Below are positions 51,055-52,006 of a stretch of DNA of 57,257 nt, piece after piece. Both the position numbers and the translations under genes were made by a program. The DNA comes from Gemmatimonadales bacterium. Its GTDB lineage: Bacteria > Gemmatimonadota > Glassbacteria > GWA2-58-10. The notes below the pieces were generated by a model. That model did no database searches. It was not told the origin of the DNA and saw nothing but the letters and a program-made list of their open reading frames with translations. Numbering within the stretch: the stretch's first letter is position 1; each line of letters begins with the position of its first letter. The stretch lies in NCBI GenBank assembly GCA_024278175.1, contig JAJRTS010000102.1, positions 1 through 57,257 of the forward strand. Direction: 5' to 3'.

Positions 51055-51110
51055 AAGAAGTCAGAAGTCAGAATGAAAGTCAAAGGCTAAAGACAGAAGT
51101 CAGAAAAAAC
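51055..51110 (+). repeat. Left flank of the nuo cassette: AGAAGTCAG repeats
   Basis: The plus strand reads repeated AGAAGTCAG and GACAGAAGTCAGAA with spacing words (AAAGTCAAAGGC). The same motif, inverted (CTGTCTTCTG), makes up the array at 51888-52006. The two arrays therefore bracket the inserted genes as imperfect inverted repeats. The 3' end of the four-helix-bundle gene is itself partly made of this word (TCTGACTTCC on its coding strand). Confidence 0.65.
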
Positions 51111-51123
51111 CAAACCAAAAAAA

Positions 51124-51504
51124 TCAGGTATTGGAAGTCAGAATCGATTTTGCATAAGCATCCAGGATTTTGCTTACCTCTTCCAACTGGCTCATTTGTG
51201 GCCGGGGGTCGCAATAATCCAGGTCCCTGGCCAGGATCAGATAATAGCGACTCTCTTCCAGAGAACTCTGGGCTATATTAAAAAACCGTACTTTATCCAG
51301 CTTGCCCTGCCTTTTGAAACCCTCGGCTATATTGGCGGGAACTGAAACCGCCGACCGTCTGAGTTGTGAGGTCAAGCCATATTTTTCGGTCCCGGGAAAA
51401 TCTTCAGTCAGAGCGTAAACGTTCAACACTAATTGATGGGCCTTTCCCCAAACTAACAGATCCTGAAAATTTTTGGCCGGTGCTTTCGTGACTTCTCCTG
51501 CCAT
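51124..51504 (-). CDS. Four-helix-bundle protein (S23/TIGR02436 family)
   Basis: A 126-residue protein matching the family pattern: FQDLLVWGKAHQLVLNVY, LTEDFPGTEKYGLTSQLRRS, the highly conserved SVPANIAEGFKRQ and SSLEESRYYLILARDL. These proteins form pentameric four-helix bundles; they were first noted in 23S rRNA intervening sequences and resemble the Avd accessory protein of diversity-generating retroelements. Neither context applies here, since no rRNA or reverse transcriptase is nearby. Role unknown. It is the last of three small genes inserted between nuoL and nuoM and is AT-richer than nuo. Confidence 0.88.
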   Translation of the reverse strand: MAGEVTKAPAKNFQDLLVWGKAHQLVLNVYALTEDFPGTEKYGLTSQLRRSAVSVPANIAEGFKRQGKLDKVRFFNIAQSSLEESRYYLILARDLDYCDPRPQMSQLEEVSKILDAYAKSILTSNT

Positions 51505-51525
51505 TTTATCTTTTGTCCCTGGCTA

Positions 51526-51651
51526 TCATTCATCCGGCATGGAGTCGATATATTTACGATACGTTTTAGGAGATTTTGTAATCGGGTGCAACTGTGCTGC
51601 AAGGCTTTCTCTAAATAATATTTCTTGCTCGTTGACATCAAAACCTGTCAT
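51526..51651 (-). CDS. 41-residue hypothetical protein, translationally coupled
   Basis: A short gene: ATG at 51651, TGA at 51526-51528. The product starts MTGFDVNEQE and ends SMPDE, is charged and has no membrane segment. Its ATG overlaps the TGA of the upstream 68-residue gene (ATGA), a standard mark of coupled translation, which is why I call it. I do not recognise a family; the sequence could also be the remnant of a longer protein. The four-helix-bundle gene follows 21 bases on. Confidence 0.5.
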   Translation of the reverse strand: MTGFDVNEQEILFRESLAAQLHPITKSPKTYRKYIDSMPDE

Positions 51652-51854
51652 TCTCTGATCCGCTTAACTTCAAAAAATGAAAATATTGTACCAAAAATTA
51701 ATCCGACTAAAAGTGCAATTGGGAATACATGCCATGCCCCAAAATACAGACCAATGAGTCCAAAAGAAATTATAATTGGCCAGATAATACACCCAATCGC
51801 TTTTGCTCTCCGTCTGCTGTAACCGACAAACTCAGCGGCTTTTTGCCGTTGCAT
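51648..51854 (-). CDS. 68-residue two-helix membrane protein
   Basis: A small AT-rich gene. The charged N-terminus (MQRQKAAEFVGYSRRR) is followed by two hydrophobic segments (AIGCIIWPIIISFGLIGLYF and VFPIALLVGLIFGTIFSFF) and a basic tail. GGAG eight bases upstream supports the ATG. It overlaps the 41-residue gene by four bases. I know no family for it. It is the first gene of the cassette in the direction of nuo transcription. Confidence 0.6.
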   Translation of the reverse strand: MQRQKAAEFVGYSRRRAKAIGCIIWPIIISFGLIGLYFGAWHVFPIALLVGLIFGTIFSFFEVKRIRE

Positions 51855-51887
51855 GGAATGACTCCATTATTAGCCTTTCGTCTTTTT

Positions 51888-52006
51888 TGTCTTTCTTCTG
51901 TCTTCTGTCTTCTGTCTTTCTCCTGTCTTCTGTCTTCTGTCTTCTGTCTTTCTCCTGTCTCCTGTCTCCTGTCTCCTGTCTTCTGTCTTTCTCCTGTCTC
52001 CTGCCT
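51888..52006 (-). repeat. Heptamer array between nuoL and the cassette
   Basis: About 119 bases of nearly pure (C/T)CTGTCT units, alternating TCTTCTG and TCTCCTG forms with TTTC inserts. It starts within a few bases of the nuoL stop codon. The minus strand reads GACAGAAGACAGGAGACAGG. It is the mirror of the array at 51055-51110. Regular 7-base spacing allows slippage, so length probably varies between strains. It is not a CRISPR array: units are far too short and have no unique spacers. Confidence 0.72.

Follow-up and report, generated by a model that had tools for sequence, protein, structure and literature searches.

The window, that is, the whole stretch of 57,257 nucleotides analysed here, contains a cassette at positions 51055-52008, between the host genes nuoL (52011-53978, minus strand; matching PF00361, PF00662 and PF01010) upstream and nuoM (49451-51034, minus strand; PF00361) downstream. 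The cassette comprises a PF05635 gene encoding a protein of 126 residues (51124-51504) together with two small orphan ORFs; all three lie on the minus strand, in the nuo orientation. The first orphan (51648-51854) encodes 68 residues and was judged hydrophobic by inspection; the second (51526-51651) encodes 41 residues, and its ATG overlaps the stop codon of the preceding ORF. The GC content of the cassette is 38-49%, compared with about 62% in the surrounding DNA. A three-gene AT-rich cassette in nuo orientation had been described at this position in an earlier sequence-only reading, and the ORFs, the matches to PF05635 and TIGR02436 and the drop in GC content bear this out.

The 126-residue product of the hallmark gene of the element is a four-helix-bundle protein of the S23p or IVP type. 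It matched PF05635 (23S_rRNA_IVP) with an E value of 2.2e-34 and 118 bits against a cut-off of 33.8, and TIGR02436 (four helix bundle protein) with an E value of 3.4e-33; the best structural match was 2gsc (E value of 5e-18), a structure of the X. campestris homologue. To our knowledge, PF05635 proteins have no known catalytic activity. A distant four-helix-bundle similarity to Avd of the diversity-generating retroelements was also observed (NF033474, E value of 1e-5; bAvd, 5e-4), but both matches fell below the model cut-offs, far below in the case of an Avd model score of 25.6 bits against 80, and the cassette contains no reverse transcriptase. A member of the S23p family, X. campestris S23p, forms a pentameric ring (PMC4990558). 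For the 68-residue protein, neither a family match nor a homologue was found in 60 relatives, plasmids or viral contigs, and the 41-residue ORF had no Pfam match. The two ORFs are most simply read as possible passengers, gained in the interval that separates the four-helix-bundle gene from the 5' array. Family profile searches revealed no transposase among the cassette ORFs, only the PF05635 gene and the two orphans, and no ORF matched a Y1 transposase (RAYT) or any other transposase family, in agreement with the earlier reading.

Tandem heptamer arrays lie at both ends of the cassette. The right array, which is the 5' arm in coding sense, is a 119-bp tract (51890-52008) of pyrimidine-rich CTGTCTYCTGTCT units, reading GAAGGCAGGAGACAGGAGAAAGACAGAAGACAG... 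on the minus strand, and its outer end lies 2-3 bp past the nuoL stop codon. The left array, the 3' arm (51055-51105), consists of purine-rich (G)A(G)AGTCAG units; it extends for about 50 bp, together with one separate unit, GAAGTCAGA (51134-51142), that overlaps the 3' end of the four-helix-bundle ORF, and is degenerate in comparison with the right array. Both show a period of 7, and the two are inverted copies of one another, the best ungapped arm pair (51056-51109 and 51892-51945) being 76% complementary over 54 nt. The heptamer pattern occurred 12 times in the window, in all cases within the two arrays, where shuffled sequences gave an expectation of 0.07. The oppositely oriented arrays that had been noted from the sequence are thus real, but the left one is short and degenerate. 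The arms pair in the predicted RNA fold, in both the minimum free energy and the centroid structures. The fold energy of the whole cassette was not below that of shuffled sequences (z of -1.2), and arm complementarity was therefore used as evidence instead. No target duplication was recognisable at the nuo site. Given the degenerate left arm and a fold no stronger than that of shuffles, the nuo copy may be old and now immobile.

For the nuo copy, the site was compared with that in relatives. The nuoL-nuoM spacer is about 54 bp in genome G002 and about 32 bp in genome G003, from other genera of the same family. Two other relatives carry different inserts at the junction, both AT-rich and unrelated to the window cassette: one of roughly 470 bp with an 85-residue ORF and a GTAGGGGCGAGGCATGCCTCGCCC palindrome in G001, from the same genus (L096:2764-3235), and one of 1.1 kb with a 257-residue ORF and other palindromes in G004 (L099:1384-2526). 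These spacers and inserts indicate that the junction accepts inserts and that the window insert is not ancestral to the family; on this comparison, different elements have landed repeatedly at the junction. Elsewhere in the genome of the window, which has only one PF05635 gene, a gene-less inverted array pair separates two symporter genes and begins immediately behind a stop codon (C56:19440-19665). The same place carries fewer repeats in G001 and no array pair in G002. A single-arm remnant is also present in the window's genome. G002 has a separate PF05635 gene, 72% identical, between arrays of the same kind and flanked by hrcA-like and hemW-like genes.

Four-helix-bundle genes flanked by such arrays were sought in other genomes. 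Here, the 250 bp ahead of each PF05635 gene was compared with the region that spans and follows its stop codon, taken as the reverse complement, with a score threshold of at least 14.5 and with both the 99% level of mismatched-locus pairs and other genes in the same loci as controls. Mutually complementary arms reached the threshold at 113 of 158 PF05635 loci, whereas of the 124 other genes tested at these loci 6 did so (Mann-Whitney p of about 4e-30). The 99% mismatched-control level was exceeded at 68 of 85 loci within the phylum and at 38 of 73 loci from named genomes of many phyla, and arms were present in 15 of the 17 annotated plasmid loci. The arms are mostly short tandem repeats; among the 87 significant loci, a period of 7 was the most frequent (41 loci), followed by periods of 8 (16) and 14 (10). 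The repeat unit varies between elements, even within one genome (GGTGTCA, GACGGTCA, GGGAATA and GATGGAAG, among others), yet the two arms of any one element match each other. The generic test misses the window locus because its 5' array and PF05635 gene have the two extra ORFs between them.

Arms are missing around some PF05635 genes. Locus L155 (890-1970; G035:C181) carries two nearly identical PF05635 genes in tandem with no detectable arms, and array ends are therefore not universal in the family. PF05635 genes were also found at or beside a putative ychF locus in seven genera of one family (L130, L136, L150, L036, L040, L046 and L053). Five of these seven have arms, wholly different in sequence and yet self-complementary, which may reflect either repeated insertion or fast concerted turnover of the arms. 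Rfam searches revealed no rRNA at 20 related loci, and phage records gave no matches.

Given that the ORF-based neighbour calls made here proved unreliable in GC-rich genomes, as illustrated by an antisense ORF called over the apparent start of a dnaE-like gene at L148, distances to gene ends were taken from annotated plasmids, the nuo site and the symporter locus. The upstream arm starts no more than 25 bp from the neighbouring annotated gene at 12 of 15 arm-bearing plasmid loci, and the PF05635 gene is co-directional with the upstream gene at 13 of 17 annotated plasmid loci. The nuo copy, directly behind the nuoL stop codon and in the same direction, fits this pattern. As judged from the annotated loci, typical placement is directly at the end of a neighbouring gene, often at the stop codon of a co-oriented operon gene. 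The idea that the unit keeps its host operon transcribed is borne out for the family, the elements of which are placed within operons and mostly share the direction of the host genes (the 13 of 17 sites above). Elements were also seen inside CRISPR operons in Picosynechococcus PCC 7003 (L331), Anabaena sp. 90 (L346) and Pseudanabaena galeata (L347), where they occupy the cas10-cmr3 junction of type III-B or the cas6-cas4 junction of type I-D.

In a tree of 151 proteins, the window protein and the G002 copy fell in a well-supported clade with proteins of Planctomycetota, Bacteroidota, Cyanobacteria, Acidobacteria and others. The closest proteins came from Cyanobacteria, Acidobacteria, Victivallales and Bacteroidota; outside the family, identity was at best about 55-67%, in proteins of other phyla. 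Arms of the AAGTCAG/GACAGAAG type surround several of these nearest proteins. Across genomes, arm sequence correlated with protein identity (Mantel r of 0.39, 0 of 500 permutations), a value that shared ancestry inflates somewhat. The element seems, from these comparisons, to travel as a whole.

Evidence of movement came from genome G047, in which two loci, L033 and L148, hold 525-bp copies that are 90% identical within unrelated flanks. Identity begins and ends exactly at the outer arm ends, and the copies are too small to hold a transposase gene. The same genome contains gene-less, arm-only hairpins of ~128 bp at more than 30 places, with the same arms as the gene-bearing element, and its congener G061 likewise has many. 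Nine aligned 128-bp hairpins gave the consensus TAGGGGTCAGGAGTCAGGAGTCAGGGATCAGGGGG...CCCCTGATCCCTGACTCCTGACTCCTGACCCCTA, and the copies that were folded pair almost end to end (z of about -11 to -14). The ends of this hairpin family in G047 (L313-L317) and G061 (L318-L322) begin with TAGGGGTC, so that the end itself can give a neighbouring gene its TAG stop codon. The sequence-only reading had counted arrays found widely without such genes against a mobile unit. Gene-less arrays do exist, but as uniform hairpins that share the arms of the gene-bearing element, which fits non-autonomous derivatives. Two candidate empty sites in G061 were rejected: the counterpart of L148 carries a different inverted hairpin with GGGATC-type repeats, and the match for L314 proved to be a remnant. 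At L361 (G047:C116, about 21110-21275), an inverted CACAGAGG/GCACGGAG hairpin lies where G061 has a 128-bp hairpin; at both the L361 and L148 sites, the sister genomes carry different hairpin families at the same positions.

The comparison of empty sites suggested earlier was possible with cyanobacterial plasmids. In Trichormus variabilis and Scytonema, an element lies between two operon genes at a site that is empty in plasmids of Tolypothrix PCC 7601, Nostoc linckia and Aulosira, with flanks about 97% identical. Comparison of the two filled with the three empty plasmids revealed an exact 5-bp target duplication, GTAAT, in which the upstream stop codon is included. In Nostoc ATCC 53789, plasmid pNsp_a is filled and pNsp_c is empty; TTCTA occurs on both sides of the element, with the loss of one adjacent base, as an imperfect duplication. 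The intergenic spacer that comes next in pNsp_c is itself interrupted by a second element type. In Picosynechococcus PCC 7003 an element separates cas10 from cmr3, whereas the corresponding spacer of PCC 7002 is short and empty. Overall, an exact 5-bp duplication was clear at one site and an imperfect one was seen at a second, and at two further sites no target duplication was recognisable. Decay products were also present, namely, a truncated gene in Nostoc C052 and, in Brasilonema, an arm-only hairpin at the Trichormus site. In these genome comparisons, members of the family stand as discrete copies whose flanks are unrelated, close relatives have empty sites and arm-only hairpins have multiplied within the same genome; mobility of the PF05635 element class is well supported. 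For the family, the G047 copies and the filled and empty plasmids bear out the proposal of a mobile unit that takes its repeats along, and the proposal probably holds for the nuo copy as well.

The cassette is likely to be a selfish element of the IVS type, in which heptamer arrays form the arms of a long, imperfect inverted repeat, the loop contains a PF05635 gene and the outer arm ends are the ends of the unit. The nuo copy would have inserted into a short nuoL-nuoM spacer, behind the nuoL stop codon and in sense orientation, so that nuoL and nuoM remained intact and the operon could be transcribed through the element. Since the arms of each element are complementary whatever their sequence, pairing itself appears to matter, and we infer that the arms act as a paired structure, either as an RNA stem or as a single-stranded DNA hairpin. 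A pentameric four-helix-bundle ring is suggested to bind the paired arms, and the bound hairpin would then be handed to a nuclease, polymerase or transposase that the host provides in trans; as no catalysis is known for the PF05635 protein, a host enzyme should do the cutting and joining. By lying at gene ends, the element would spare the neighbouring proteins, the sense orientation would let the operon promoter express the element, and the stem in the transcript could be cut by RNase III by analogy with the IVSs of 23S rRNA.

It is also conceivable that the heptamer hairpins are MITEs moved by a conventional transposase encoded elsewhere in the genome, in which case the PF05635 gene would be a hitch-hiker and, with the small ORFs, cargo between MITE ends. 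Such a scheme would accommodate the 5-bp target duplication, which is of a kind usual in DDE transposition, the large excess of arm-only hairpins over gene-bearing copies in G047, and the lack of a known catalytic domain in PF05635. We nevertheless regard it as unlikely, given that complementary arms accompany one gene family in many phyla (113/158 loci against 6/124 other genes), that arm sequence tracks PF05635 similarity, which is not expected of cargo, and that no common transposase gene was seen at the loci read. Somewhat less probable is that the arms are kept as host regulatory structures (bidirectional terminators, stabilisers of mRNA 3' ends or RNase III sites), with mobility secondary or ancient. 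The proximity of arms to annotated neighbours (within about 25 bp at 12 of 15 plasmid loci), the related hairpins of differing sequence at the same sites in sister genomes, and the position of Xanthomonas heptamer arrays no more than 50 bp from, or overlapping, stop codons (Rehm et al. 2015, PMC4692102) are consistent with such a role. Clean, hairpin-free empty sites at 97% flank identity and recent duplication in G047 show, by contrast, that the arms are dispensable and spread. Very improbable is a chance pile-up at nuoL-nuoM, in which a permissive junction would have taken up an AT-rich insertion of small genes and unrelated heptamer arrays would have grown independently on either side by slippage. 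Although the junction takes unrelated inserts in G001 and G004 and the copy number of arrays changes quickly, the closest PF05635 relatives from other phyla (L032, L170, L176, L180 and L328-L330) show the same combination of gene, inverted geometry and repeat type.

The preferred reading, that of a selfish IVS-type element, can be set against several known systems. Insertion sequences carry their own transposase, whereas no transposase gene is recognisable inside the cassette. In REP/BIME systems with RAYT (REPtrons), one gene lies between inverted repeats and many gene-less repeat copies occur, and RAYT is a Y1/HUH enzyme. The layout of gene and gene-less repeats is alike in the PF05635 elements; the gene of the cassette, by contrast, encodes a four-helix bundle without known catalytic activity and not a Y1 enzyme. 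The 128-bp hairpins resemble MITEs such as Correia elements and BrickBuilt (PMC10969869, PMC4596501) in having inverted ends and in being intergenic, multicopy and gene-less, but their gene-bearing relative has a PF05635 gene and no transposase, and their arms are short tandem arrays with a unit that changes between elements.

The nearest known system is the IVS in helix 45 of Coxiella burnetii 23S rRNA, which contains an S23p gene and a paired stem that is cut by RNase III (PMC4990558). In both, a PF05635/S23p gene lies within self-complementary termini. Heptamers GACAGAT/GACAGAA in variable copy number precede the Coxiella S23p gene (PMC4990558), and the array at 51890-52008 reads GACAGAA/GACAGGA. 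The cassette differs in its position, in an mRNA operon between nuoL and nuoM rather than in a 23S rRNA gene, in its long array arms and two extra ORFs, and in having relatives with transposed copies, empty sites and arm-only derivatives, none of which is reported in PMC4990558, where selfish mobility of the 23S rRNA IVS is proposed and unproven. Orphan heptamer arrays have been described with GGGAATC units in Xanthomonas and GGGGA(C/T)T units in Nostoc (Rehm 2015, PMC4692102), the Xanthomonas genomes having 70-75 inverted array pairs each (PMC4692102), and with TAACTGA units in Beggiatoaceae (PMC4679880). These are likewise intergenic, have a period of 7 and abut or overlap gene ends, but were published without a mobile partner (PMC4692102, PMC4679880). 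By analogy, we propose that they may be linked to PF05635 elements. In the literature searched, which lacked most subscription journals, PF05635 genes flanked by array arms were not found described outside rRNA. The cassette probably represents a widespread kind of insertion element with no recognised transposase that is, as far as that literature goes, known so far only from bacterial rRNA genes.

More broadly, and with slightly less than even confidence, PF05635 elements may constitute a widespread transposable class with gene-bearing and MITE-like forms, the sole gene of which would encode a toroidal four-helix bundle that is not an enzyme and that recognises heptamer arms by their self-complementarity; among the products of the class would be the 23S rRNA IVSs as well as the orphan arrays of Xanthomonas, Nostoc and Beggiatoaceae. 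Many genomes have genes annotated merely as "four helix bundle protein", and several bacterial groups have intergenic heptamer arrays of unexplained origin; the present data join a gene and arrays of these kinds as the core and the ends of one insertion element. Given the empty sites and the partial target-duplication signature, the mobility of 23S rRNA IVSs can now be tested directly in cyanobacteria that grow in culture. If elements transpose without a recognised transposase, either a new enzyme or a new use of host enzymes would be implied.
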